From positions 1-30,614 of the IMG/VR virus record IMGVR_UViG_3300046685_000011: DNA of 30,614 nt; one strand, written 5' to 3'. Position 1 is the first letter of the stretch; each line of letters starts with the position of its first letter. This document shows, piece after piece, positions 5,339-23,708 of the stretch. The DNA is from a virus. The notes under the pieces are model-generated. The model saw only the letters and a program-made list of their open reading frames with translations, ran no database searches and had not been told where the DNA came from. The translations under genes and the position numbers were made by a program.

Positions 5339-5959
5339 ATGATACAACTACCGCCTAATTCAAGTGGGACAATCCTGCAAAGCTCTGTTCCTGTAACTGG
5401 TACGGGAACTGCGGCCCCAACCTATCAGGCTGGTGAGGTTCAGGAAGTTGCCCTTACTCCCTCTGGAAAGCCAACTTATCGTTGTGCTTTTACAGCTCTC
5501 AATGTTGGTACGGGTGCAACTACAGTTCTAGCTCAGATTACGGGATCTGCCACTAAGGTTGTGAAGGTTACTAAGGTTGCTGTTTCAGGTACTGAGGCCA
5601 CTGCAGCGGCTTATCACAATATTCAGTTGGTTAAATCCTCAACTGCTATCTCTGGTGGAACTCCCTCTGCTGGAACTAACATTCCTCTGGATAGTGGCTT
5701 TGGTGCTGCTACAGTCACTACTCAGGGCTTTACGGCTGCTCCTACTGCGGGAACTCCTGTGGGAACGATTGCAGCTAAGAAGATCTTCCTGCCTATCACA
5801 GGAACTGCTGCGAATGGTGTCGGCCTGGCAGAGTGGGATCTCTCTAAGTATCCTGTAGTTCTGCATGGAGTTGCTCAGTCTCTCGACATTAAGTCTAATA
5901 GTGAGACTCCTGCTAACGCTCCTCTGTTGGACATTGAGATTGAGTGGACGGAGGAATAA
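5339..5959 (+). CDS. Beta-rich virion protein, possible head decoration or fibre
   Basis: The protein has 206 residues rich in Gly, Thr, Ala and Val, with short alternating strands throughout, no signal peptide and no membrane segment. The composition (for example FTALNVGTGATTVLAQITGS) is typical of phage surface proteins. The C-terminus (LHGVAQSLDIKSNSETP, then an acidic end) resembles proteins seen next to portal and capsid genes. The role is inferred from composition and place. The start follows TAGGAG plus spacer. The separation from upstream genes by a strong hairpin suggests its own mRNA level, which would fit an abundant virion protein. Confidence 0.7.
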   Translation: MIQLPPNSSGTILQSSVPVTGTGTAAPTYQAGEVQEVALTPSGKPTYRCAFTALNVGTGATTVLAQITGSATKVVKVTKVAVSGTEATAAAYHNIQLVKSSTAISGGTPSAGTNIPLDSGFGAATVTTQGFTAAPTAGTPVGTIAAKKIFLPITGTAANGVGLAEWDLSKYPVVLHGVAQSLDIKSNSETPANAPLLDIEIEWTEE

Positions 5960-5960
5960 C

Positions 5961-6260
5961 ATGGCCCCTCTTGATTTCATGTGGATGGCAGGTAGATGGC
6001 TTCCCTCTGGTTATGTAACGCCTGGAATCAACGATGCAATGGTTGATGTCTTTGGCCAGGCCATCACTGTGGGAGCTACGGTCAAGTTGATTTGCAAGGT
6101 AATTGCTCTAAACCCTTCTAACACGCATTTTCAGGATGTCACCTTGAAGCCTATCTATCCTGATAGTGCGTTGGTAGAGAATGAATGTGGAGTGTACCCA
6201 CAAAACATTCCGTCCAAAGTTACCTTTGCACACCCATTGCAACTAGTAGTGGGGAGTTAG
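5961..6260 (+). CDS. Small structural-type protein, first of a tandem pair
   Basis: Ninety-nine residues from the ATG at 5961, chosen because GGAGG lies 5-9 bases upstream; a longer in-frame extension to 5865 lies inside the previous gene and is rejected. The central part (MVDVFGQAITVGATVKLICK, then VIALNPSNTHFQDVT) matches the next gene (MVDANGVAIAVGETVMITG, then VIALNPASTHYREVT), so the two are duplicated copies. They look like small beta-barrel proteins. An N-terminal extension of about 26 residues is unique to this copy. I do not recognise a function; a virion or chaperone role is a guess from position. Confidence 0.8.
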   Translation: MAPLDFMWMAGRWLPSGYVTPGINDAMVDVFGQAITVGATVKLICKVIALNPSNTHFQDVTLKPIYPDSALVENECGVYPQNIPSKVTFAHPLQLVVGS

Positions 6261-6267
6261 GAGACCT

Positions 6268-6528
6268 ATGGTAGATGCTAATGGAGTTGCAATTGCTGTT
6301 GGTGAAACTGTAATGATTACCGGGGTGGTTATTGCCCTCAATCCGGCCTCCACTCATTACAGGGAAGTTACCATCCGAGTTATCCACCCCGTACCTGGGG
6401 TGCCGGCTAATGACATTCCTACTGCTCCTGATGCAGGTGGAACTGTTAACGCTAGGACTGAGATGCATATGCATCATCCTGGTGCTGACTACATTCTTAA
6501 AGTCAGTAACCTAGTTCTAAATCACTAG
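6268..6528 (+). CDS. Small structural-type protein, second of a tandem pair
   Basis: The protein has 86 residues; the start is set by TTAGGAG upstream. The first 45 residues match residues 27-70 of the preceding gene at many positions, including VG-TV, VIALNP-xx-TH and a following VT strand. The second half differs: it is Pro-rich and then carries MHMHH, a His-rich segment that could bind metal. The gene ends at 6528 inside an unusually long Shine-Dalgarno-like sequence (6527-6538). Confidence 0.8.
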   Translation: MVDANGVAIAVGETVMITGVVIALNPASTHYREVTIRVIHPVPGVPANDIPTAPDAGGTVNARTEMHMHHPGADYILKVSNLVLNH

Positions 6529-6582: not shown

Positions 6583-8829
6583 ATGGCTGAAGAAAAAGAC
6601 ATTAAACTTTCACCTGAGGAAGAGAAAAGCCTCAAAGATATAGTGAAGTCCTGTGAGAAAGAGGACGAAGAAATCTGGAAGTGCATGTCTCGCCAGTGGA
6701 AGAAAGCTGAAGAGTTCTGGAAAGGTGTACAATATCTATTCTGGGATTCTGCTAATGAAACCTGGGGGAGTCCTATAGAAGGTGCTGCTGGTGTATCAAC
6801 CAATTCTAGTTTAGGTCTTGCAGATCAGGATGAAGAAGATCAATTAGGTTCTTTCTCAGATAAGGTTGTAGATATTTATAAAGGTCATGGCGAGTCAATC
6901 GTTTCTGCTTTAGCCTCTCAAATTCCTGCTCTACGTTATCTCCCTGATGATGCTGATCAGGATGAAGACACTCTTACTGCTAGAACATATAGTAAGATAG
7001 CTGATCTTATTCAACGTCACAACAAAGCTAAACTTATATTCCTTAAAGCTCTTTTCTATCTTGCCAATCATGGTATTGTTGCTAGTTATAGATATAAAGA
7101 TTCTGACTTTGCTTATGGTTCTAAGAAAGTTCCCACATTTGGTGAGCAAGAGGTTACTCAGACTTCTTATACCTGCCCTGATTGTGGATACGAAGCAGAG
7201 CAAAGTTGGTCTGGAAATCCTTGCCCCAATTGTGGTAGTATAGATGAACCTGAAGAGAATGAAACTAAGTCTAAAGTTCCTGTGCAGACTGGCATAGAGG
7301 ATCAGCCGAAAACCAGGATTAAATTAGATATATTTGGTGCTTTACACTTCAAAGTCCCAATTTGGTCAAGAAATCAAAAAGAGTGCTCTTACTTTGGTTT
7401 GCGTGTAGATCAGGGAAAAGATACTGTATGTGAGATGTTTCCTGTTTTATACGATGAAATTCAGTCAGATCAGATTGATAACCTTGAGCGTTTCACTCGT
7501 GCGTCTTTCTCTTATCCAACAGAGCAAGATATCAGTGTAATGAATCTTATAACTATTGGGAGGTGGTGGTTACGCCCAGCCGCCCTCAATAGGGAGACAA
7601 GAAAGACTATCAGGGAAAGTCTGAAGAAGAAGTTTCCTAAAGGCTGTAAGGTTACCCTTGTAGGTAAAGAAAAACACATAGGGGAAGTAAAAAATGAGGA
7701 TCTTGACGATCGCTGGGAAATCGGGCAGGCTGGATTGTCTACGTACATTTATTCTGATCCTTTACTTCGACCTCTCATTCAGATTCAGGAGATGCGTAAC
7801 CAACTGGTTAACCTCATAGTTGAGACTATTGAGCATGGCATACCTTCTGAATTTGCAGATCCCCAAGTTCTAAACTTTGATACTTATTCTAGATTTGAAG
7901 CTGTTCCAGGCTACATCTATAAGACCAAAGCCGGCCGACCTGGTGAGCCTATTGGTAATTCTTTCTACACATCAAATCGTGCGACTCTTAGTCGTGAAGT
8001 TGCTATGTTTTTGAAGCAACTGGATCAAGATGCTCAGTTTGCTACAGGTTCTTTTCCCTCTATCTATGGTGGACCAAGTGAGGGTAAGAGTAGAACATAT
8101 GCGGAATATGCTGCATCCAGGCAAATGGCATTACAGCGGCTCTCCATTGTTTGGACATTAGTAGTTGACTGGTGGGTTCGTACCATTGATGGTGCTGTAC
8201 ATCAGTATGCTGATCTTGTTGTAGAAGATGAGAAATTCACACAGTTTAAGGATGGAAACTTCATCAATGTGTGGATTAAACGCTCTGCAATGCAGGGTAA
8301 AGTCGGTGGTGTAGAGCCAGAAGCATCTGAGTCTTTCCCTGTTTCTCTTGCTCAGAAGAAGGATTTGATTCTTAAACTTATGGAGATGCAGAATGAATAT
8401 ATCAATTCTGCCCTCTATAAGCCAGAAAATGCTAGACTTATTCAAGATGTTCTTGCATTGAATGAGCTTAAACTCCCTGGTGAAGAGCAGAGAATTAAGC
8501 AGATAATGGAGATCCAGGAGCTTATTAAACCTGGAAATGAAGCTATTCCTACAGGTGAAATGGGACCTGATGGTCAGGAAGTAACTAAGCCAACTGTTCC
8601 TATTGATCCTAACGTGGATGATGATGATGTTCACATTGGGACTTTGATTGGGTTCATGGTTGACCTTCCAGGCTTAGATGTTGCTAAAGAAAATCCTGCT
8701 GGATATGCCAATCTAACTGCTCACTTGAAAGCACATCAACTTAGTAAGATGATGAAAACAGCATCAGCTGCAAGTGGAACTCCCTCCGGAACTCCTCCCC
8801 CGACAGCTCATGCAGGAGTTGAAGAATGA
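6583..8829 (+). CDS. Portal protein with a zinc-ribbon insertion
   Basis: The portal forms the ring through which DNA enters and leaves the capsid. The call rests on length (748, typical of podovirus-like P22-type portals), on its place between terminase and scaffold/capsid, and on the overall acidic helical N-terminus with a mixed core (IQEMRNQLVNLIVETIEHGI; a TYAEYAASRQMALQRL helix) and a long helical C-terminus. Residues 198-217 form CPDCG-x12-CPNCG, a zinc ribbon, inserted in a charged loop. Such a finger is unusual for a portal. The C-terminal tail is Pro/Thr/Ala-rich. The stop overlaps the next start as ATGA. Translation may be controlled by the structure at 6527-6582. Confidence 0.85.
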   Translation: MAEEKDIKLSPEEEKSLKDIVKSCEKEDEEIWKCMSRQWKKAEEFWKGVQYLFWDSANETWGSPIEGAAGVSTNSSLGLADQDEEDQLGSFSDKVVDIYKGHGESIVSALASQIPALRYLPDDADQDEDTLTARTYSKIADLIQRHNKAKLIFLKALFYLANHGIVASYRYKDSDFAYGSKKVPTFGEQEVTQTSYTCPDCGYEAEQSWSGNPCPNCGSIDEPEENETKSKVPVQTGIEDQPKTRIKLDIFGALHFKVPIWSRNQKECSYFGLRVDQGKDTVCEMFPVLYDEIQSDQIDNLERFTRASFSYPTEQDISVMNLITIGRWWLRPAALNRETRKTIRESLKKKFPKGCKVTLVGKEKHIGEVKNEDLDDRWEIGQAGLSTYIYSDPLLRPLIQIQEMRNQLVNLIVETIEHGIPSEFADPQVLNFDTYSRFEAVPGYIYKTKAGRPGEPIGNSFYTSNRATLSREVAMFLKQLDQDAQFATGSFPSIYGGPSEGKSRTYAEYAASRQMALQRLSIVWTLVVDWWVRTIDGAVHQYADLVVEDEKFTQFKDGNFINVWIKRSAMQGKVGGVEPEASESFPVSLAQKKDLILKLMEMQNEYINSALYKPENARLIQDVLALNELKLPGEEQRIKQIMEIQELIKPGNEAIPTGEMGPDGQEVTKPTVPIDPNVDDDDVHIGTLIGFMVDLPGLDVAKENPAGYANLTAHLKAHQLSKMMKTASAASGTPSGTPPPTAHAGVEE

Positions 8830-10874: not shown

Positions 10875-11183
10875 ATGACAAGATCATACGTATTTACACT
10901 TGCAAATAAGAATACAGCTTACAATCTTTGGAGTGCTCTTATCCTCCCAACATTTACAGATCCATCTTTCGGGAATACTCCCTTTGTTCCCAATATGGTT
11001 AGTACTCTTAAGTATCAGAATCTGACCTCTGGAGCAACTGTAAGGGTGAATGGTAGCTCTATTCTATCAGGAGCTTCGGGAGATATGGTTACTGCACCAA
11101 CTAACTGTATTGATCTGGGGGCGTGGACCTTTACTACTGATACAGATGGATCTCAGATTGAGGTTATTTTTATATCAAAATGA
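10875..11183 (+). CDS. Small beta-rich phage protein
   Basis: One hundred and two residues, with TTAGGA upstream of the ATG. The pattern is a simple beta fold: YVFTLANKNTAYNLWSALI, a loop rich in Pro and Asn, then short strands (TVRVNGSSILSGASGD) and a C-terminal FTTDTDGSQIEVIFISK. Similar small proteins occur among phage head genes as I recall, without a named function. The stop overlaps the ATG of the ATP-grasp gene by four bases (ATGA), so the two are translationally coupled. That coupling makes it a candidate partner or substrate of the enzyme. Confidence 0.7.
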   Translation: MTRSYVFTLANKNTAYNLWSALILPTFTDPSFGNTPFVPNMVSTLKYQNLTSGATVRVNGSSILSGASGDMVTAPTNCIDLGAWTFTTDTDGSQIEVIFISK

Positions 11184-12454
11184 AATTCTTACTATATTCT
11201 GAGTGTGGAGAGGGGGCTCAAATCCTCAAGAAGATTGAGTCTGAAGGAAATGAGTGCTCTCTCTACATTCATGATTCTGGGTATAAGTCTGTATTTGATG
11301 GCTTACTGAATAAGACCGACAATCCAGATAGTTTCATAGATAAAGATACAATTATAATCTTTGATATGTCTGGCAACGGTGCGATAGCTGAAGGCTATCG
11401 TAAAGCTGGTCACGCAGTGTTTGGAGCTAGTAAATTTCACGATGATCTTGAGAAAGATCGTGAGTTTGGCTTTGATGTAATGAGACAGTGTGGAATACAA
11501 CTCCCAGAATATAAGGAGTTTACTTCTTTTAGGCAGGGAATGGACTATGTTCGTCAAGCGAACAAAAAGCTAGTGTTCAAACCCTCTGGAAGTATGCCCT
11601 GTAAGTTGACTTACTGCTCTGAAAGTATGGATGAGCTACTTTCTTATATGCAGTTTGTTGAGAAATACTTTGGTTCTAAGATTCATTCTTTTGTTTTACA
11701 GGAGTTTATTGAAGGAACAGTAGTATCATCTGAATTCTTTTGCAATGGGAAGAAGTTCCTTGAGCCTCCTAATCATACTGTTGAAAATAAGAAGTTTATG
11801 AATGATAATCTTGGACCTTCAACAGGGTGTTCAGGAAATATAACTTGGGTGGAACCTGTTGGAACTGAGATTATAGATTCTGGTGTAGCTAGAGCAGAAG
11901 ATATTTGTATTTCTGAGCAACTTATAGGTCAAATTGATTTGAATGCTGTCGTAACTGCCAACGGCATTTACGGCCTAGAATGGACACCAAGATTTGGTTA
12001 TGACGCTACTCCAACGCTATTAGCGTTGCTACAAGATGATTTTGGTAAATTCTTTTCTTCTATAGCAAAAGGTGAAGATTACAAGCCCTCTTTTTCTCCC
12101 TCATATGCAGGAGGTGTAAGAGTTACTATTCCCCCTTATCCTGTAGAGATAATGGGAGGAAAAGAGAAAATGCTGGAGAATATATCTCCTAACAAAGGTG
12201 TTCCTATATTAAACTATGAAGAGTTTGAAAAGGAAATCTATTTCTATGAGGTTTCCTCTAATGAAGAAACGCTGGTACATTCTGGTGGTACAGGTGTCAT
12301 TGGTTGTGTAATGGGTATATCTGATGATCCTGAAAAATCCCTGGAAAGACCATATGAGATTCTGGAAAAGCTAGTAATTCCAGATAAGCAGTACAGAACT
12401 GATCTAGTGGAAGTTTTAACTAAAGATATTAAAGAGGTAAAGAAAAATGGCTGA
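11180..12454 (+). CDS. PurD-like ATP-grasp ligase within the head genes
   Basis: ATP-grasp enzymes join a carboxylate to an amine using ATP. The 424-residue length and layout match glycinamide ribonucleotide synthetase (PurD): an N-terminal Rossmann-like part (1-90), then the ATP-binding Lys in VFKPSG (132-137), an adenine-contact strand VLQEFIEG (172-179), the PurD signature-like stretch NKKFMNDNLGPSTGCSG (203-219), and the metal-binding region GLEWTPRFGYD (265-275) with E267 and R271. PurD has 'LEFNxRFGDPE' at that point; here it is LEWTPRFGYDAT. No other purine gene is nearby. It lies between portal and scaffold and overlaps both neighbours (4 and 8 bases), so it is co-made with head proteins. 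Known phage amidoligases beside head genes are thought to modify virion proteins; that is the favoured inference here. Confidence 0.85.
   Translation: MKFLLYSECGEGAQILKKIESEGNECSLYIHDSGYKSVFDGLLNKTDNPDSFIDKDTIIIFDMSGNGAIAEGYRKAGHAVFGASKFHDDLEKDREFGFDVMRQCGIQLPEYKEFTSFRQGMDYVRQANKKLVFKPSGSMPCKLTYCSESMDELLSYMQFVEKYFGSKIHSFVLQEFIEGTVVSSEFFCNGKKFLEPPNHTVENKKFMNDNLGPSTGCSGNITWVEPVGTEIIDSGVARAEDICISEQLIGQIDLNAVVTANGIYGLEWTPRFGYDATPTLLALLQDDFGKFFSSIAKGEDYKPSFSPSYAGGVRVTIPPYPVEIMGGKEKMLENISPNKGVPILNYEEFEKEIYFYEVSSNEETLVHSGGTGVIGCVMGISDDPEKSLERPYEILEKLVIPDKQYRTDLVEVLTKDIKEVKKNG
11549..11563. repeat. GTTCG-N5-CGAAC palindrome inside the ATP-grasp gene
   Basis: GTTCG (11549-11553), TCAAG, CGAAC (11559-11563). 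It differs from the copy at 23260-23274 by one spacer base. Both encode VRQAN in unrelated proteins. Confidence 0.6.
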
Positions 12455-13715
12455 CACTTTGGTCGCGTCGATTGCTCCGACTTCTGCCCCCTCCAGTCCT
12501 AATTCTGGAGCAGGTCCGAAATATAACCCTGATGTAACAACTCTCGAAGATGGTCTGGAAGAAGAGCATCTTGAGACTGAAGAAGAAGATGAGGATGATG
12601 AAGACTCTTCTGGGAAGAGTAAGATTCACAAAGTAGTTAAAGAAGATGATGGAGAAGACGAAGAGGACAAAGAAGATAAAGAAGATGACGAAGACTCAGA
12701 CGAAGATGATGAAGAGGATAAGACAGAAATTCCCTTCAATCGTCCTTCTTTGAAAGAGATCAAAGCTGAGTTTCCTGATCTCTTTAAGAAGTTTCCTGAG
12801 CTTCGTGAGAGTTTCTTTAGAGAGCTTGAGTTTACTAAACTCTTTCCCAGTATTGAAGATGCTAAAGAGGCTTTTACTGAGAATGAAGCCTTTAGTAATC
12901 TTCAGGAGAGTGTCCTCTCCGGTGATCCAGCCCCTCTACTTGACAGCGTAGAAAAGACCGATAAGAATGCTTTTGAGCTCTTGTCGCTTTCTTTTCTCCC
13001 TTCTTTGTATAAGAAGAATCCTGAGCTATACACTCAGGCTGTCAATCCTCTTCTTCAGAATCTTGTTCGCTCTCTTTACAAGAGTAGTGATGAGAACACT
13101 AAAAATGCAGGCTTGGTTCTAGCACAATTCCTCTTTGATGATGATGGAGAGGGTATTGCTAAAGGGCTGAAGAGCATTGTTAAGAGTCTTAAGCCTGATG
13201 AGGAACAGACTAAACTGAAGGCTAAAAGAGAAGAGCAACTATCCACTCAGTTTAGAACTTCTGTAGGTCATGTAGAAGAAACTATAGCAAAGAGTCTTAG
13301 AGCTATAGTTCTCAAGAATCCTGCGTTTGATCCAAACAAGACTTTTTCTAAGTTTCTACGTGAGCAGGGAGCTACTGAGATTGGTCGTAGAATTAGTAAA
13401 CAGCTCCAACAGGATCGTGGTCATATGGATGTTATGGCTTCTCGTTGGAAGAGAGCCAGAGCAAATGGTTTTTCAAGTGATGACGAAAGCAAGATTGTCT
13501 CCACGTACCTTGCACGTGCGAAATCACTCATTCCAGATGCTTGTGCAAAAGTAACAGCTGCCATGCTTGGCACTAGAACTAAGGTTGAAAAGCCAGGCAA
13601 GGAAAGGAAAGAGAGTTTCTCTGGCAAAGCTAGTAGTTCTGGAAACGGAGCTTCTAGTAAGACAGAGAAGGTAGATTACAACAAGATGTCCGATATGGAT
13701 ATTCTTGCCTCATAG
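12447..13715 (+). CDS. Probable scaffolding protein
   Basis: Scaffold proteins guide capsid assembly and leave before or during DNA filling. The 422-residue protein lies directly upstream of the capsid gene. It has a Ser/Pro-rich start, a very acidic Asp/Glu tract (about residues 34-95, interrupted by few Lys and Ser), a long helical middle (95-345) and a flexible basic/Ser-rich tail that ends in a conserved-looking short helix (YNKMSDMDILAS). This acidic-helical-flexible plan is typical of podovirus scaffolds. The start overlaps the end of the ATP-grasp gene by 8 bases. There is no protease gene or visible cleavage motif. The sequence is too simple to rule out another acidic assembly protein. 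Confidence 0.75.
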   Translation: MADTLVASIAPTSAPSSPNSGAGPKYNPDVTTLEDGLEEEHLETEEEDEDDEDSSGKSKIHKVVKEDDGEDEEDKEDKEDDEDSDEDDEEDKTEIPFNRPSLKEIKAEFPDLFKKFPELRESFFRELEFTKLFPSIEDAKEAFTENEAFSNLQESVLSGDPAPLLDSVEKTDKNAFELLSLSFLPSLYKKNPELYTQAVNPLLQNLVRSLYKSSDENTKNAGLVLAQFLFDDDGEGIAKGLKSIVKSLKPDEEQTKLKAKREEQLSTQFRTSVGHVEETIAKSLRAIVLKNPAFDPNKTFSKFLREQGATEIGRRISKQLQQDRGHMDVMASRWKRARANGFSSDDESKIVSTYLARAKSLIPDACAKVTAAMLGTRTKVEKPGKERKESFSGKASSSGNGASSKTEKVDYNKMSDMDILAS

Positions 13716-13724
13716 GAGACAATC

Positions 13725-15002
13725 ATGCCCGTAGGTGGAAGTGCAGGTACTATTGCTGCTGAGCTAGAGCGTGTGGAATCTAAGATTCCTGTTCTCTTTG
13801 AAAGAGATGACACGTTCTATTCTCATATCGAGAAACGTCCAGGCGAGGTCGTATCAGAGATCTCGATGCGCGTTCCTCTGGAAATTCATCCCTCTGCTGC
13901 TCTTAGCCAATTCTCCTCAGATGGTGGAGATTTGGGTACTGGTGACATGCCAGATTATGATAAGGCAGAGATTAACACCATTGAAATCCGTAATGCTCTT
14001 CAATGGACGTCTCGTAGGAAATACGCGACTGACTCTGCTCGTAAGGCTGTTCTTAATACCTTCCGTCGTGACCTAGCCAGTTCTATGGCTGAGTTTCGTC
14101 GTGGTATGGATAGTCTTTGCATGACTGCTGGTAATGGTGTGTTGGGTACTATCACCACTATTACTAACGCTGGTGGTTTGGGTGGAACTGATACTTTGGT
14201 TCTCAATACGGATGGTTATGGTGCCAGGCTTGTCCGTATGAAGCAACCAGTAAATATCTGGGACCCAACCCTTGCTACCCTTCGTAATACTGGCACTCTT
14301 GCTGGTGAGCCCAAGGTTATTTACTATGATGGTCCTAATAAGACCATTCAGACTAATAACTCTCCCAATAACATCCAGAATGGTGACCTAGTTACCTTCT
14401 CTGGTCTTTGGAACGCTCCCCCCAGCTCTCTGTTGGGTGTTCCTTATCACGCTTCTAATGCCAGTACTGGTAACTGGCTTGGATTTAACCGCGCTACTAC
14501 TCCTGAAATCAGGGCTAACCGTGTAGCTGCTGGTGGAGCTTTGTCTCTGCCTATGCCTCGGTTGGCAATGAATAAAATTGGAGATCGTGTTGGTATCAAG
14601 AAACGTAAGTCTCTTGCTGCCTGGATGCATCCCTGTCAAAAGCAGCAGTATGAAGAACTGGGCTTTGAGGCATCTATCATCAATAAGGATGCTAAAGAAC
14701 AGGGACTGGATCTCTACTTCAACGACAACATGCGAATGGCAGGATGTCCTGTCAATGAAAGCTATTCCTGGGATAAGACCAGGATTGACTTCATTGATTA
14801 TGAATCCTGGTCAAGGGCTGAGTTCTATCCCACCCAGTGGTATAAGGATGAGAATGGGCTGAAGTTCTTTGTCATGCGTGGTACTTCAGGTGGAGTTGCT
14901 ACGAGTAACTTGGCGTACATTGTTACCTCGTGGAACCTCTACGTGAATAATCCTGCCACCATTTCGTACATTGACACGTTGAGTGTGCCATCGGGTTACT
15001 AG
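13725..15002 (+). CDS. Major capsid protein, HK97-type fold
   Basis: This is the main shell protein. The call rests on order (after scaffold), length (425) and typical segments: an N-arm, then SEISMRVPLEIHPSAALSQF, an E-loop-like region, a helix with RRDLASSMAEFRRGMDSL (about 114-131), a GNGVLGTITTI strand, and a C-terminal domain with GDRVGIKKRKSLAAWMHPCQ, then MAGCPVNESYSWDKTRIDFI and RAEFYPTQWYKDENGLKFF. The Gly/Asn-rich middle (about 170-280) may be an inserted domain. The start has AGGAG 8-12 bases upstream. A hairpin terminator follows the stop. Codons are well adapted, as expected for the most abundant phage protein. Confidence 0.85.
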   Translation: MPVGGSAGTIAAELERVESKIPVLFERDDTFYSHIEKRPGEVVSEISMRVPLEIHPSAALSQFSSDGGDLGTGDMPDYDKAEINTIEIRNALQWTSRRKYATDSARKAVLNTFRRDLASSMAEFRRGMDSLCMTAGNGVLGTITTITNAGGLGGTDTLVLNTDGYGARLVRMKQPVNIWDPTLATLRNTGTLAGEPKVIYYDGPNKTIQTNNSPNNIQNGDLVTFSGLWNAPPSSLLGVPYHASNASTGNWLGFNRATTPEIRANRVAAGGALSLPMPRLAMNKIGDRVGIKKRKSLAAWMHPCQKQQYEELGFEASIINKDAKEQGLDLYFNDNMRMAGCPVNESYSWDKTRIDFIDYESWSRAEFYPTQWYKDENGLKFFVMRGTSGGVATSNLAYIVTSWNLYVNNPATISYIDTLSVPSGY

Positions 15003-15058: not shown

Positions 15059-15607
15059 ATGAGAGAACAGTTAGAAGCTGAAGTAATTAACGGCTGGTTA
15101 GAGCGTAATGCTCCTAAGATTCCTCTAACTGATAAACCAATGTTCAAACTTGTCTGGTCAGATGATCAGTATGAGTTAAGAACTGGTAACTTCAGAGAGT
15201 TTCTTGGGGATATCTTTGTTAGAGAGGTTAAGAAGACTGAAAGAACTTTGAAGTATAATTACCTCTCTGAAATGTGGATTTTGGAACAGTGGTTTCCTCC
15301 TGATGTATCTTTCAATGAGGAACTTCCAGAATCTATTCACGGATCTTTTGAGCCACTTTATGTCTTTGCTGATAAGAATAACACTCCCTTGCCATTAAAG
15401 CTGGATGTTGTTCAGTTCATTATTAGAACACTTCTTACAAAGAGTTCTAACAAACTGTTTCTAGGCTCTTATGCAAAGACATTGAGGGAAGAAAAAGAAC
15501 GTATTGCTAGAAAACAAGATTGGGATATTCTCAGTGATGAGGGTCCACTTGTTAGCCAATTTCACGACGGTTCGGCAATCATTTTGCCGGGAAAGAGCAT
15601 TCAATGA
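15059..15607 (+). CDS. Unknown 182-residue head/neck protein
   Basis: The ATG at 15059 is chosen because AGAGGA lies upstream; an in-frame TTG at 15017 would lie inside the terminator. The protein is mixed alpha/beta and soluble: an N-terminal helix (MREQLEAEVINGWLERNAPK), a strand region (KPMFKLVWSDDQYELRTGNF), several aromatic residues (YLSEMWILEQWFPPDV) and a charged C-terminus. I do not recognise it by name. It overlaps the next gene by four bases (ATGA), and the two probably act together. The position between capsid and adaptors suggests head completion or an assembly factor. Confidence 0.75.
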   Translation: MREQLEAEVINGWLERNAPKIPLTDKPMFKLVWSDDQYELRTGNFREFLGDIFVREVKKTERTLKYNYLSEMWILEQWFPPDVSFNEELPESIHGSFEPLYVFADKNNTPLPLKLDVVQFIIRTLLTKSSNKLFLGSYAKTLREEKERIARKQDWDILSDEGPLVSQFHDGSAIILPGKSIQ

Positions 15608-16269
15608 TCGAGCTTTACAAGCAAGACAAATCCACGATTTTTTCTATTGCACCCTTTGGTGGGGAAGAGTTCAAGCCAGGTCTTTATCCCGGCCGTTTTC
15701 TGATTCCCCCTTGTAAGGATGATAGAGAACCTGTCAGGCTAGTAGTTGGAGCTAGTGAACATTTAGTCTCTATTGCTGGTCGTAAGCAGCCTCTAAGGGT
15801 TGTTACACCCTCTATGGAGGTTGCAAACTCTGTTGTAACTGACTATCTTGATGGTCAGCTTTTCTCTGCTCATGATGCCAAGCCAGGCCTTTGTTGGTTA
15901 CAGGGAGATGTTTCTGTAGCTAACTTCATAAAGGATCACAAGGCTCTTTATGATGCTCTCTTGAATCAGCAGAGAAAGTGGTTTGTAAACATTGTCAAAC
16001 ATACACAGGATGATTGGAATAAGTACCATCATTCTCGTGTGGTATCAGATCAGGCTAGGTTCGCTGTAAGAGTGCTTGGCCTGGATACTCCTGAATGGAT
16101 GACTGTTGACTCTATGGGTAGCGCACCTGCAAAGTGCCCTGCTTGTGGGGAAACTGTTAATCCTGAAGTTGCCTGGTGCCCTAACTGTATTCAGGGTGGA
16201 CACAAGGTTGTCATTAATCTAAAGAAGTTTGAAGAACTAATGAAGAATCAGCCAGCCTTGGCTAAATAG
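15604..16269 (+). CDS. Unknown 221-residue protein with a C-terminal zinc ribbon
   Basis: Residues 178-195 read CPACG-x10-CPNC, a zinc ribbon. It is the second such motif in this window after that of the portal (portal Cys198, 201, 214, 217). The N-terminal part (residues 1-70) is beta-rich (TIFSIAPFGGEEFKPGLYPG), and the middle is helical with many aromatic residues (a region with ALYDALLNQQRKWFVNIVKH). It overlaps the preceding gene by four bases. No enzyme signature is visible. The position suggests a head-assembly role, but function is unknown. Confidence 0.75.
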   Translation: MIELYKQDKSTIFSIAPFGGEEFKPGLYPGRFLIPPCKDDREPVRLVVGASEHLVSIAGRKQPLRVVTPSMEVANSVVTDYLDGQLFSAHDAKPGLCWLQGDVSVANFIKDHKALYDALLNQQRKWFVNIVKHTQDDWNKYHHSRVVSDQARFAVRVLGLDTPEWMTVDSMGSAPAKCPACGETVNPEVAWCPNCIQGGHKVVINLKKFEELMKNQPALAK

Positions 16270-16610: not shown

Positions 16611-17234
16611 ATGGCCTTGCTAAGTGATGCTCTAACGATTGCTAGAACTTATCTAAATGATGATCTAGCAACACAGTTTCCTGATCCTGCACTAATTCCT
16701 AAAGTGCAGGAAGCTCACAGGGAACTGCAAGAGCAACTTTGGCTTGTTGGATCTCCTATTGTAAGAGGGCAGGTAGTTTTAGCCTATCTGTCCTCTTCTG
16801 GAGCTGTATTTCCTACAGTTCCTACAGATTTCCTTTGTCCTTTTGCTTTGCTAGAAAATACAGCAAGTTCAACAATTAGCTCTCTGAACTGGATTCCAAT
16901 GACTGAGTGCTTTTCTATTCCAGAAGGTACAGTACTTGCAGCCACGCTGAAACTGTGGGCATGGAATAATGAAGTTATTCAGATTGTTGGTGCTAGTGCT
17001 AATAGAGCTATACTATTAAAGTATAGAAAGTTAATTCCTATTCCTGTAGATCCTTCTGATCCTTTAGGGATGATTTTTGCAGAAAGCTATCTTGGAGCTA
17101 GAGCAGCAGCTATAGCTTATGGAACGGTTCAGAATTTAGAAGCTGCTGGTGCTGCTGATACTGTTGCACAGACCAATCTGCAAAGACTAATGGCCACTCA
17201 TAGAGGCCAGCAGAAACCCTTGGAGCGACCTTAA
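16611..17234 (+). CDS. Head-tail adaptor-like protein, first copy
   Basis: The protein has 207 residues. The N-terminal helix (ALTIARTYLNDDLATQFPDP), then LIPKVQEAHRELQEQL, is the pattern I associate with the P22 gp4-type adaptor family, which docks below the portal and seals the head. The C-terminal LGMIFAESYLGARAAAIAYG helix and AQTNLQRLM end are shared with the next gene, so the two are full-length duplicates. The stop overlaps the next start as TAATG. The start has AGGAG upstream. Adaptor function is inferred from family pattern and place before the nozzle gene. Confidence 0.75.
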   Translation: MALLSDALTIARTYLNDDLATQFPDPALIPKVQEAHRELQEQLWLVGSPIVRGQVVLAYLSSSGAVFPTVPTDFLCPFALLENTASSTISSLNWIPMTECFSIPEGTVLAATLKLWAWNNEVIQIVGASANRAILLKYRKLIPIPVDPSDPLGMIFAESYLGARAAAIAYGTVQNLEAAGAADTVAQTNLQRLMATHRGQQKPLERP

Positions 17235-17896
17235 TGTCTCAAGCATTAGTAGCATTAAAACTAGCTAGAACATATCTGCATGATAATAATGCTATTACTT
17301 GGACTGATGCAGAGTTAATGCCACTTCTTCAAGTGGCTCACTCTGAAATGGTAGAAGAGTTAAAACTGCATCAGCTAGGTACATTGAAGGCTGTATCCGC
17401 GCGTATTACAATTCCTGCTTTAGCTCTTGATATGGGAGTTAATCAACCAACTAACATTATTGATCCTATTTCTCTGGTAGAGGGAGATCCTGGAGCTGAT
17501 ATAGCTAACTTTCAGGATATGGTTAGGACTAACTTTATTCCTTTTGAGGATCAAACAAACTGGCTCACTTACTGGTCTTGGATAGGAGAGAAAATTGTTT
17601 TTCTGGGAGCTAATACTGCAAGAGAGGTTATCCTTAGATATACAGGTTCTATAGCAACTCCTCAATATGTAACAGATCAACTAGGAATAATTTTTGCTGA
17701 GAACTTTATAGCTCCTAGAATAGTTTCTTTAGCTTTCATGAATATTGGAAAGCCAAATCAGAATATAGAGGATATTGCTCAGACTAATCTATACAAGATT
17801 ATTCAACATTCTGTAGTAGACGATCAGCGTCCAACACGTAGAAGAAGTTATAGAAGTGGTAAGGGTTGCTATTCTCCTGGGAGATCACGTGGCTAA
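17234..17896 (+). CDS. Head-tail adaptor-like protein, second copy
   Basis: The protein has 220 residues and is a paralogue of the preceding gene: ALKLARTYLHDNNAITWTDA, then LMPLLQVAHSEMVEEL at the N-terminus and LGIIFAENFIAPRIVSLAF plus AQTNLYKII at the C-terminus align along the whole length. It ends in a basic Arg/Ser-rich tail (RPTRRRSYRSGKG) that the first copy lacks; such a tail could touch DNA or the portal. The pair may form two stacked or mixed rings at the neck, or one copy may have taken a new role. It overlaps the next gene by 8 bases. Confidence 0.75.
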   Translation: MSQALVALKLARTYLHDNNAITWTDAELMPLLQVAHSEMVEELKLHQLGTLKAVSARITIPALALDMGVNQPTNIIDPISLVEGDPGADIANFQDMVRTNFIPFEDQTNWLTYWSWIGEKIVFLGANTAREVILRYTGSIATPQYVTDQLGIIFAENFIAPRIVSLAFMNIGKPNQNIEDIAQTNLYKIIQHSVVDDQRPTRRRSYRSGKGCYSPGRSRG

Positions 17897-20235: not shown

Positions 20236-22200
20236 ATGAAAAAGTTTGCTCTTTTCTTTCTCTTTGTAGTCTGTTCTTTTGGCCAGACTATCACCTGTGT
20301 TGGAAATCCAGGAAATACTACTGGCGCTTATCGACAACAATGTCGCACGTCTACAAATGTAACCTATGTGTGTAGTGTTTCTTCTGGATGTACTATTGCA
20401 TCTAGCTGGAAGATACAGACCCTTACTGATTTTGCTACTCAGGTAAAGAACCGGACTGCTGACCAGTTGACCTACACCACCCCTGGAACTGGAGCGGTGG
20501 CCAGGACGCAGGCGGATAGGAACGCCGATATCATAAGCGTGAAAGACTATGGGGCAAAGGGAGACGGAGCAACCGACGACACCCTGGCGATCCAGAAAGC
20601 TATTGATTACGTTGGGCCGCTTCGGGAAAGCCTGTACTTCCCCGCTGGCACGTACATCGTCTCCACGCTGAGCCTGTACCACGGAGCCACGCCGTACCAC
20701 GGAATGACTGTGCGTGGTTCCGGCCCCAGTACTATCATCAAGATCAAGGACCACTGCAATCCCGGCGGGTTCAATCAGTTCTACGTGGGCGGGACCATTT
20801 GCAATGGATTCTCCGTCTCCGATCCAGGCGATACGTCAGGATCGAACCCGACGCAGGACGTTACGATTCAGGATTTGACAATCGACGGGAATCGGGTCAA
20901 TCAGACAGCACCGCCGACCTTAAATGACGATATCAGCCACGATGGGATTCTGAGCCAGCAATCAACTCGGCTAACGGTTTCCAATGTAACCGTCAAGAAC
21001 TTCTGGTTTTTTGGAATCTGCCTGGGGATCTGGAGTTCGTACGCGAACATCAGTAACCTGCACACGATAAATAACGGCTACGACGCCGCGACCGGGTATG
21101 GGGGGCTTCAGATTGCAGGAACCAGCTTCGGGGACACAGTTAGTGGACACGTAAGCGACGGAGATGTTATTGGCGCGTGGATCATCAACAACGCGCATCG
21201 CAACGTGATCTCGGGAACGTACAATAACTCTCTCAGTCAAGGCTTCATTCTGGCGGCATATGGCACGTCTCACGCCTATGGCAACATCATCAACGTGACG
21301 GTGTATAACTCAGGGAGCCAAGGGCTACTGTTCGGTACAGCCCAAGGCTTAGGCGTAGAGAACAACGAAGTCACGGCAACTCTCGATGGTTGTGGCGGAA
21401 CGCTGGGCGTCCAGGGCGCTTACATCGGCAGCATGGCGAAAGGGAATAAGTTGAGTCTAGCGATCCGTCGCTCAAGCCACGGTGGGATTGAAGATAACGG
21501 AAGTAATAACACCCTTGACCTTACGCTCACCGAGAATAGCCAGTTTTCCGCTCTCGGGGACTATGCCTTGCGCGTGAATGGAACGCTCAACCAATACCGT
21601 GTACTCGCCTATGACGGACAGGTGACTCCAACGCAGCGCGGAATCCGCTTCGAGTCCGGCTCGACGCTCAATCAGGTGCAGGTGTCGATATACCCACCGG
21701 CCAGCAACATTTCAGATGTCGGAACGGGAAACTCATACATCCTGAACGGGCAGGATTTTATCAATAATGGCGTGGATCGAGTGAGTCAAGTCCTGACGTT
21801 AGCGGCTGGACAGACGAACTACGCCAAGGAGATCAAGGATTCTAACGGAGTGGATTTGTGGGCCATCGGCCCGAACGGCTCTCCAACCACATGGGGATCA
21901 TATTACACCGCACGGGGCGCGACCGAAGCTGGGATGTTCACGCACACGGCAAACTCTACAATCACTGGTCAGGTGTATCAGGCTGGAGACGTGATGAAGT
22001 TTGCAAATTATGGCGTGAAGGTCCCCTTTACGGTGGACTTGAATGCAAATTCAGGTTCGTTGGATGTGACCACGACATCCGTTAAAACTCAACTGCTATT
22101 CGATGCATCCACGAAGGGGGTTAAGCTCCCAACGTCTTGCTCCGGCCTTGCCGCTGGAACGCTCTACAATAACTCCGGTACTCCAGCGATCTGCCCATGA
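20236..22200 (+). CDS. Tailspike with pectate-lyase fold and a signal-like N-terminus
   Basis: The 654-residue protein has a pectate-lyase-type beta-helix. Residues 98-124 carry the family entry motif (IISVKDYGAKGDGATDDTLA), and many short repeated strands with Asn/Gly turns follow to about residue 480. A C-terminal domain (about 520-654) ends in a Cys-containing tail. Such spikes bind and often cut capsule or O-antigen. Oddly, residues 1-17 (MKKFALFFLFVVCSFGQ) look like a secretion signal, unusual for a virion protein; the next part is Cys-rich (C21, C36, C46, C52). Base use jumps from AT-rich to GC-rich near 20450 (residue 72) and returns to AT-rich after 22200, showing a module acquired by exchange. 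GAGGTG precedes the start. Confidence 0.85.
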   Translation: MKKFALFFLFVVCSFGQTITCVGNPGNTTGAYRQQCRTSTNVTYVCSVSSGCTIASSWKIQTLTDFATQVKNRTADQLTYTTPGTGAVARTQADRNADIISVKDYGAKGDGATDDTLAIQKAIDYVGPLRESLYFPAGTYIVSTLSLYHGATPYHGMTVRGSGPSTIIKIKDHCNPGGFNQFYVGGTICNGFSVSDPGDTSGSNPTQDVTIQDLTIDGNRVNQTAPPTLNDDISHDGILSQQSTRLTVSNVTVKNFWFFGICLGIWSSYANISNLHTINNGYDAATGYGGLQIAGTSFGDTVSGHVSDGDVIGAWIINNAHRNVISGTYNNSLSQGFILAAYGTSHAYGNIINVTVYNSGSQGLLFGTAQGLGVENNEVTATLDGCGGTLGVQGAYIGSMAKGNKLSLAIRRSSHGGIEDNGSNNTLDLTLTENSQFSALGDYALRVNGTLNQYRVLAYDGQVTPTQRGIRFESGSTLNQVQVSIYPPASNISDVGTGNSYILNGQDFINNGVDRVSQVLTLAAGQTNYAKEIKDSNGVDLWAIGPNGSPTTWGSYYTARGATEAGMFTHTANSTITGQVYQAGDVMKFANYGVKVPFTVDLNANSGSLDVTTTSVKTQLLFDASTKGVKLPTSCSGLAAGTLYNNSGTPAICP

Positions 22201-22261: not shown

Positions 22262-22984
22262 ATGCAAAGACTTGTGATCTCAGGAGCTATTGACGGAGTT
22301 AACAGAACTTATACTGTTAACTTGACTCCTACGTGTCTTCTTCTGTTTCAAGATGGTTTGCTACAATACCTTGTTAATGATTATACATTTAATGTATCTA
22401 CAAGGACTATATTTTTCAATCTCCCTCCTCTTCCTGGTGTTATCTTAGGTGCTATAGATGACCCAACGATGATACTACGTACAGTTAGTGGGACAGTAAA
22501 TGGTAGATTAAGAAGTTTTGGCTTTTATAATGTTTCTGGTAACTCTAGTAACTTTGTAGTTTTCCTTAATGGTTCACTACAGTTACCCTATCTTGATTAT
22601 TATAAATATGGCATGAGTTTTAAGTTTCTTGTAGATCCTGCATTAGATTCTCAATTAGTTGTATATACAAGAACCAGTTTACAATATACCCCTTTTATTG
22701 GCCTTATAGATGGTACTAATGCACTATTTACGTATGCTTTTCCAGGTATAACAAATAATCTAACTTTCAAGAATGGACTTTATCAGTCTCCTGGGACTGA
22801 TTATAATGTATTAGGAAATACTTCTACTTTTACTGTAGCTCCAGCACAGAATGATATCATTACAACTATAACAGATATTTTAGCTATTGTAACACCTAAA
22901 ACATCGTTCTTTCACCTTAAAGGTATGACAGTTTATAGTAGGCAAGCCTTCGAAGTCAGACCAGCAGCATCACAACTATTATGA
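22262..22984 (+). CDS. Three-repeat beta protein, tail-associated
   Basis: The protein has 240 residues built from three copies of about 65-75 residues. They begin at SGAIDGVNRTYTV, SGTVNGRLRSFGF and IGLIDGTNALFTY. Each continues with a hydrophobic strand, then FQDG, FLNG or FKNG, and an acidic-aromatic DY. This 'DGxNxxF... LxxFxNGxxxxxxxDY' unit is a recurring element of phage fibre and baseplate proteins. A C-terminal extension (residues 210-240) is not repeated. It follows the spike gene after a 61-base gap without a good ribosome site. It overlaps the next gene by four bases. Likely a tail appendage. Confidence 0.7.
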   Translation: MQRLVISGAIDGVNRTYTVNLTPTCLLLFQDGLLQYLVNDYTFNVSTRTIFFNLPPLPGVILGAIDDPTMILRTVSGTVNGRLRSFGFYNVSGNSSNFVVFLNGSLQLPYLDYYKYGMSFKFLVDPALDSQLVVYTRTSLQYTPFIGLIDGTNALFTYAFPGITNNLTFKNGLYQSPGTDYNVLGNTSTFTVAPAQNDIITTITDILAIVTPKTSFFHLKGMTVYSRQAFEVRPAASQLL

Positions 22985-23346
22985 TAGTATTATCTGGTGC
23001 AGATCAAGAGTTAATGGAGTCTATCCATGATGGTAGTTTTCCACTGCCAAACTTGGATGATCCAAACTATATCTGTAAAGCCACTGTAGTAGATGGGGGT
23101 ATTATGTCAGTTATAGTTCTAGTGAGAAGAACTACTGAGGCTACTCTTATCTGTAATTCTAACTGCTCCCTCTTTGAGAGGGGAAAAGGGCTATTAGAAG
23201 CTACAGAGACATTGAAAAAGCAACTTAGAGCACAGAGTTATACTGATGTTCATGCGTTTGTTCGTCAGGCGAACGTAGAGAAAGTTATAAAAAAACTGGG
23301 CTTTGAAGAATCTATAAGTGGTAAGCCATTGGTATTACAGCTATGA
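22981..23346 (+). CDS. GNAT-like acetyltransferase-fold protein
   Basis: The 121-residue protein follows the GNAT plan in short form: an early acidic segment (LMESIHDGSFPLPNL), a central strand (GGIMSVIVLVRRTTEATLIC), a helix (LLEATETLKKQLRAQSY) and the typical late strand-helix-strand (VHAFVRQANVEKVIKKLGFE, then a final strand). The clear R/QxxGxG/A acetyl-CoA loop is not obvious near residues 64-76 (SLFERGKGLLEA), so activity is uncertain. Short GNAT proteins appear beside ejection genes in podoviruses, and T7 internal protein gp13 was described with this fold. It overlaps both neighbours by four bases. Confidence 0.6.
   Translation: MIVLSGADQELMESIHDGSFPLPNLDDPNYICKATVVDGGIMSVIVLVRRTTEATLICNSNCSLFERGKGLLEATETLKKQLRAQSYTDVHAFVRQANVEKVIKKLGFEESISGKPLVLQL
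23260..23274. repeat. GTTCG-N5-CGAAC palindrome inside the GNAT-like gene
   Basis: GTTCG (23260-23264), TCAGG, CGAAC (23270-23274); the fourth copy of the pattern. It differs by one spacer base from the copy at 11549-11563. Confidence 0.6.
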
Positions 23347-23708
23347 AGGATTGGGTTGGCTTTGATTTCGATGGTACTTTGTGCAGAGACGACCAGCCTT
23401 CTTCCAACGGAGCGTTGGGCGATCCTATAAAACCTATGATTGACAAGGCTATTGAACATATCAAAAAGGGTGACCAAGTATATATCTTTACAGCTAGAAT
23501 TTGGCCCCTAGGAACATTAGATGAAGGGAAGAACAAGTCAGTTACTAACAAAGCTCGTGCAGAACTTGCAAAGATTAGAGTATTCTGTCGTAAGAACTTT
23601 GGGCAGGTACTGCCCATAACTTGTGTCAAGTTACCTGCAATGCAGTTGCTTTATGATGATAACGCTATTAGGGTAGAAAGGAATACAGGTAAATGTCTCC
23701 ATACATAA
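23343..23708 (+). CDS. Small HAD-family phosphatase
   Basis: The 121-residue protein shows all four HAD motifs: DFDGTL at 8-13 (nucleophile D8, acid-base D10), FTAR with T50 as motif II, K96 as motif III, and YDDN with D105/D106 as motif IV. The plan matches short phage HAD phosphatases without a cap domain, which I recall in many phage genomes. Substrate is unknown: a nucleotide, sugar phosphate or nucleic-acid 3'-phosphate are all possible. It overlaps the GNAT-like gene (ATGA) and the next gene by 16 bases, so it is translated with tail and ejection genes rather than with replication genes. Confidence 0.85.
   Translation: MKDWVGFDFDGTLCRDDQPSSNGALGDPIKPMIDKAIEHIKKGDQVYIFTARIWPLGTLDEGKNKSVTNKARAELAKIRVFCRKNFGQVLPITCVKLPAMQLLYDDNAIRVERNTGKCLHT

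Follow-up and report, generated by a model that had tools for sequence, protein, structure and literature searches.

A PurD-fold ATP-grasp ligase with replaced PurD-specific residues in the late structural operons of three phage lineages

Phage gene clusters that combine ATP-grasp and amidoligase enzymes were reportedly described by Iyer et al. in 2009. The ATP-grasp/amidoligase clusters of LUZ24-like phages (PMC3890496) resemble the ligase studied here in their podovirus-type phage setting and in the amide ligation proposed for them, but their ATP-grasps are short (291 aa in UFV-P2) and belong to early-gene clusters that also hold an amidoligase and a GATase. Among characterised systems the one closest to our ligase is PurD, or GAR synthetase (TIGR00877; PDB 2YW2, 2QK4 and 1GSO); in viral surveys, 'purD' is tallied among the auxiliary metabolic genes of purine synthesis (PMC11360552, PMC11097641, PMC12043954). 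The two proteins share domain order, fold, a C-terminal YRxD and the equivalents of E100, K143, K214, E283 and R287, whereas the ligase lacks N285, D290, E292, the REH loop, the GKG loop and the GARS_N domain of PurD, has an added D-x-N and is only 15–20% identical. Similar losses are on record in haloarchaea, in which two extra PurD-like proteins, Hlac_1553 and rrnAC0307, were judged not to be GAR synthetases during curation of archaeal purine genes (PMC3261824). By that published description they lack GARS_N, the aspartate of R[LF]GDPE and a normal N-terminal loop, like the phage ligase; unlike it, they are cellular.

The ligase gene, its predicted fold and its active site

We analysed the whole of IMGVR_UViG_3300046685_000011, a 30,614-base record of a soil-type bacterial virus (the window), which is probably incomplete, since its relatives measure 40–48 kb. 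The ligase gene is a real open reading frame (Table 1) that overlaps its upstream neighbour by 4 bases and the scaffold gene by 8 bases, as an earlier note on this DNA had claimed. The upstream overlap reads ATGA and a Shine-Dalgarno-like AGAGG of the scaffold gene sits within the 3' end of the ligase gene; judged from the sequence, these overlaps and the embedded AGAGG make translational coupling of the ligase with its neighbours plausible. The scaffold gene takes its name from its match to phrog_3927, and the portal-position gene from its size and position. For the major capsid protein (MCP) candidate, 12 of 26 relatives match a PHROG 'major head protein', and a predicted, low-confidence model gives HK97-fold matches by Foldseek. 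The order portal–[slot]–scaffold–MCP is conserved in about 80 relatives.

Table 1 Features of the ligase locus (positions in the window)
Feature	Position	Strand	Evidence or remark
Portal-position gene, 748 aa, bounding the ligase-holding variable slot on its upstream side	6583..8829	+	Conserved position
102-aa protein, 4-nt overlap with ligase	10875..11183	+	Not conserved in ligase-bearing relatives
PurD-fold ATP-grasp ligase, 424 aa	11180..12454	+	ATG ORF; Pfam, NCBIfam and PDB matches; AF2 pLDDT 94; ~85 viral homologues
Codons for residues 91–94 (E91, R94; AaPurD E100, K103; Mg/ATP)	11450..11461	+	E and R kept in 71/71
Residues 134–145: K134 (AaPurD K143), then degenerate P-loop	11579..11614	+	PurD GLAAGKG lost, 0/60
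VENKKFMNDNLGPSTGC motif, residues 201–217: E202 (AaPurD D212), K204 (K214), C217 (PurD Gly)	11780..11830	+	
D253-x-N255	11936..11944	+	Invariant in phage and cellular relatives; absent in PurD (Y/F-x-G)
LEWTPRFGYDA, residues 266–276, in place of PurD LEFNxRxGDPE	11975..12007	+	E267 and R271 kept
YRTD, residues 405–408, C-terminal PurD-domain motif	12392..12403	+	R406 and D408 invariant
Scaffold gene (putative), 8-nt overlap with ligase, acidic N-terminal region	12447..13715	+	phrog_3927 head scaffolding, E=5e-4
Major capsid protein candidate (HK97-like)	13725..15002	+	PHROG match in relatives; Foldseek on low-confidence model

At the sequence level the similarity of the window ligase to PurD is unambiguous and far past chance. 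The protein matches Pfam GARS_A (6e-12), GARS_C at 0.003, which is under the cut-off of that family, and PurD chains in the PDB (8e-18); a profile of 60 homologues reached up to 5e-32 against the same chains. Its match to TIGR00877 (6e-25, 87.9 bits) missed the family cut-off of 288 bits, as did those of two other homologues tested (23–88 bits). We built an AlphaFold2 model from 60 window and locus sequences (pLDDT 94.1, pTM 0.92), and the best 15 PDB matches to it by Foldseek were all GAR synthetases (whole-chain TM 0.69–0.79, 15–20% identity); the predicted fold is a complete PurD/GAR-synthetase fold. Membership in the ATP-grasp superfamily follows from the Foldseek fold and from the invariance of K134, K204, E267 and D253. 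The best match in a viral structure library had a TMq of about 0.44, so a full-length PurD-like viral protein is not represented in that library, and PHROGs offered a single weak, unannotated family that touched 11 of the 60 homologues. The earlier note had looked to a structural comparison with PurD for signs of a changed substrate pocket; in our prediction the whole PurD fold is kept and PurD-specific residues are replaced.

To follow these replacements residue by residue, we mapped the Mg/ATP and active-site residues named for AaPurD (PMC8880213) onto an alignment of 71 phage proteins, 10 cellular relatives and 9 true PurDs. The equivalents of E100, K143, K214, E283 and R287 (E91, K134, K204, E267 and R271 of the ligase) are kept in 71/71 phage proteins, and that of K103 is an arginine, R94, in every one; the PurD states of these ATP/Mg and transition-state residues are invariant in the 9 true PurDs. 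E185 is replaced by Q and D212 by E, both in 71/71; N285 is replaced by T in 70 proteins and by G in one. The equivalent of D290 is Y, I or L and that of E292 is A, S, C or G throughout the 71, and at these three positions (N285, D290 and E292) the PurD state is invariant in 9/9 true PurDs. The second Gly of GPNTGG has become C in 70 phage proteins and A in one, and D253/N255 has been gained in all 71.

Motif searches gave a matching picture. The window reads RFGYDAT and does not match the PS00184 motif R[LF]GDPEx[EQIM], which holds the glycine-binding E292. Neither the GGREH or REH N-terminal loop nor GKG or GRG in the P-loop stretch occurs in any of 60 phage homologues, the REH loop and the GKG P-loop both being invariant in the 9 true PurDs. 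GARS_N was found in 0 of 29 phage records; in three bacterial bins it was detected, in their true PurD. The signature stretches listed in the earlier note (VFKPSG, VLQEFIEG, NKKFMNDNLGPSTGCSG and GLEWTPRFGYD) do lie where it had placed them, and they lack the PurD diagnostic residues. Values of dN/dS were about 0.03–0.16 between those homologue pairs for which dS was unsaturated, so the ligase is under purifying selection. On this alignment, ATP/acyl-phosphate chemistry appears to be kept and substrate recognition to be altered. The motifs, together with a divergent N-domain, suggest loss of the phosphoribosylamine site, which is itself not resolved in PurD structures (PMC8880213). E202 and R271 could bind a glycine-like acid, and PurD chemistry may thus persist in part.

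Viral homologues and three operon positions

Viral scans with two queries yielded 67 loci, and added capsid, hub and late-gene queries brought the viral homologues to about 85 in total. The phage proteins, 75 rows in a FastTree tree, group together in a single clade separate from PurD. We distinguished three types of operon position, A, B and C; in this tree type A arose once, as did type C, and type B is one clade except for three untyped fragments inside it. All 63 typed loci carry the ligase within a same-strand late block, and its position suggests that the ligase is expressed late. Placement in a late structural operon, as the earlier note had described it for the window, is therefore real and repeated in three lineages.

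The neighbours differ from type to type. Type A, which includes the window, is arranged portal–[variable slot]–ligase–scaffold–MCP; 17 of 19 homologues have the ligase overlapping the scaffold gene or at most 9 nt away from it, and in three type A phages (L134, L149 and L150) the ligase directly follows the portal. In type B the ligase comes after the internal-virion module, behind a late-gene run following a structural gene (phrog_3287), and before a large unannotated gene, c1, in 33 of 38 loci. In type C it usually overlaps an unannotated upstream gene, c20; the next gene downstream is c13 in 19 of 20 loci, and the hub gene of the block matches phrog_511, an internal virion protein. No homologous ligase neighbour is common to types A, B and C, and most of those in B and C lack a Pfam or PHROG annotation. 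Linkage to the scaffold is peculiar to lineage A; the fixed scaffold or capsid linkage raised in the earlier note holds in type A only, with B and C having the ligase elsewhere.

We also observed differences in how firmly the gene is held. In types B and C every contig that extends as far as the position of the ligase carries it, a count for which the queries were drawn from ligase-bearing phages, so that ligase-free lineages may be under-sampled. Of the distinct MCP rows related to that of the window, 19 come with the ligase; on the MCP tree its presence takes three changes, which can be read as a single gain plus two losses within a 24-row clade. Two losses in lineage A mean that the ligase is not essential there. 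The gene was absent from anywhere in 31/31 ligase-minus records tested and present in exactly one copy in 29/29 ligase-plus records tested.

To look for partners, we compared whole records (12 type A with ligase, 4 type A without, 3 type B and 3 type C). The only family with the pattern 12/12, 0/4, 3/3 and 3/3 was the ligase itself; no co-occurring partner gene was found among these records, nor any co-encoded amidoligase, GATase or GNAT-type partner co-varying with the ligase, and with few records and phmmer-level clustering a fast-evolving partner could be missed. One candidate GNAT partner, the family of the gene at 22981-23346, was set aside: it occurs in 16/16 type A records regardless of the ligase and has no Pfam or PHROG match.

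Several other genes of the window drew attention. The portal-position gene has a zinc-ribbon-like CxxC...CxxC insertion at 7150-7260 (residues ~190–225) with weak Pfam zinc-ribbon matches, and the pattern CxxC-x(8-25)-CxxC occurs in 45 of 75 related portals. A second zinc-ribbon-like motif (CPACG...CPNC, weak Pfam DZR matches) lies at residues 175–195 of the gene at 15604-16269, a core gene downstream of the capsid gene. The gene at 20236-22200 encodes a pectate-lyase/rhamnogalacturonase fold (PF12708, 7e-14) with a signal-peptide-like N-terminus and is likely a tailspike. Adjacent paralogue pairs occur in the late region (16611-17234 with 17234-17896, and 5865-6260 with 6268-6528; clusters c35 and c95). 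The stretch 22981-23708 holds a small core gene (22981-23346), which resembles an acetyltransferase by eye only, and after it a DxDGT HAD-like gene that weakly matches PHROGs for phosphoheptose isomerase and polynucleotide kinase.

Two sets of database records touch on the viral family. The fecal, Listeria, Enterococcus and Acinetobacter 'phage' records returned by our searches (H2-H17 and H20-H30) were rejected as ligase homologues, as they look like host purD, which suggests that several GenBank 'phage' records contain contaminating host DNA or are wrongly labelled. The sole annotated phage with a distant ligase homologue is MW202796 (L009); that homologue is unannotated there, and the coding sequences at 34127-34372 and 38075-38485 of the same record are labelled 'ubiquitin' and 'N-acetyltransferase gcN5'.

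Probable function of the ligase and candidate acceptors

We consider it probable that the ligase is a stand-alone, late-expressed and neofunctionalised carboxylate–amine (amide-bond) ligase, a chemistry to which the kept residues and the fold point. The protein appears to keep the PurD fold and its ATP/acyl-phosphate machinery and to have lost the features specific to glycine and phosphoribosylamine. It would most likely carry out the ATP-driven activation of an amino acid or related acid at its carboxyl group and join the activated acid to an amine; the acceptor would be encoded by the phage core genome or by the host, without a dedicated partner gene. Our tentative proposal, held with somewhat less than even confidence, is that late in infection the ligase attaches an amino acid, or an acid of that kind, to a component of the virion or to an envelope- or defence-related molecule, the re-tooling of this PurD-derived enzyme having occurred before or on entry into phages. 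As for the acceptor, we lean, with similar caution, towards a virion protein and rank a small-molecule or host-envelope target only slightly behind it.

Cellular relatives bear on the latter possibility. Full-length relatives occur in 11 of 396 Acidobacteriota genomes, away from recognisable phage genes; samples of 299 Pseudomonadota and 201 Chloroflexota genomes yielded none, bar known phage contigs. These Acidobacteriota proteins (L246-L249 and L255-L260) are about 26–31% identical to the phage ligase over their full length, fall on the sister side of the phage clade in the FastTree tree and share with it E202, Q174, R94, D-x-N, T269, G-Y and YRTD. Unlike the phage ligase they are chromosomal and in a non-phage context, with G-E-M-G where phages have G-C, F or L in place of W268, and, in one subclade, a Lys/Pro/Ala/Glu-rich N-terminal extension. 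D-x-N, T269, Y274 and E202 are common to both clades, which places the active-site change at or before the split between phage and cellular proteins. Five of the 10 cellular loci examined are arranged aminotransferase III–MFS–PurD-like–AmpG-like MFS, an order found in one subclade, and the remainder are orphans; by analogy this setting hints at small-molecule chemistry and is no proof for the phage enzyme.

The ligase may, on this reading, make or modify a small molecule or a host-envelope component such as an amino-acid conjugate or an anti-superinfection or lysis-related product. We regard this as possible and only slightly less probable than a virion-protein target: the context of the closest cellular kin and the lack of a co-occurring phage partner protein among the records compared speak for it, but the phage gene sits in structural operons and not among moron or lysis genes, the kin are themselves uncharacterised, and the two clades differ at C217, W268 and P270.

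A virion protein common to the three lineages, whether an internal or ejection protein, a hub or a fibre, is a possible acceptor that, specified in this way, ranks slightly below the small-molecule reading. It would fit the constant presence of the ligase in late structural blocks and, in types B and C, in which the gene seems to be fixed, its place next to genes of internal-virion type. No neighbour is shared across the types, however, those in B and C are mostly unannotated, and ligase-minus A phages retain the same core genes.

The earlier note had favoured acceptors closer at hand, namely the acidic scaffold tail, the capsid or the coupled 102-aa protein, and we now find addition of an amino acid to any of these improbable. 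The overlaps with both neighbours in the window and the tight spacing to the scaffold gene in 17/19 type A homologues do suggest such a link, but types B and C place the ligase away from the scaffold. As a substrate the scaffold was rejected on this lineage-specific linkage and on its acidity, which is much the same whether or not the phage has the ligase (median D+E 0.32 with it, 0.36 without). The 102-aa protein fell because it is not conserved among relatives and is absent between portal and ligase in L134, L149 and L150, where nothing separates the two genes. For the capsid, no MCP residue tracks ligase presence: in MCP, portal and scaffold alike, no column separates 18–19 ligase-plus from 4–5 sister ligase-minus phages, a comparison of low power with two independent losses. 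The alignment of the type B gene c7 proved too divergent for a column scan. Lineage-specific linkage, similar acidity and the lack of a tracking column thus remove, within this limited power, the specific support for all three substrates.

Purine synthesis fares worse still. A true PurD acting as an auxiliary metabolic gene would account for the PurD fold and the TIGR00877 similarity, and viral purD genes have been reported in that role (PMC11360552, PMC11097641, PMC12043954), but at 88 bits the ligase stays well below the cut-off of 288, and it has lost PurD-invariant residues, GARS_N and the REH and P-loop motifs. The one companion purine gene searched for, purF, was found in 0 of 29 phage records. 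Five bacterial bins carry the ligase on phage-like contigs, and each also holds its own true purD (5/5); haloarchaeal proteins with like losses were rejected as GAR synthetases (PMC3261824). GAR synthesis by the window ligase is, on its residues, very unlikely, and the earlier note's claim that it does not serve purine synthesis is supported. Least probable of all is a catalytically dead PurD relative serving as a structural or assembly factor, for which the degenerate P-loop region might speak, but E91, R94, K134, K204, D253, E267 and R271 are invariant in 71/71 and the gene is under purifying selection.

Implications for viral purD genes and phage biology

The family passes the Pfam GARS_A threshold yet lacks the PurD diagnostic residues, so viral purD calls need residue checks. 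Viral 'purD' genes should have their residues verified before they are counted as metabolic; the genes of the published surveys may or may not belong to this family. Apparently universal in two lineages and accessory in a third, the ligase offers a natural comparison set, and the table of residues supplies direct mutants for testing. If a virion or envelope molecule is indeed modified, this would be a new late-stage phage function: an unrecognised protein- or metabolite-modifying step in at least three phage lineages, with an origin shared with an uncharacterised Acidobacteriota enzyme.
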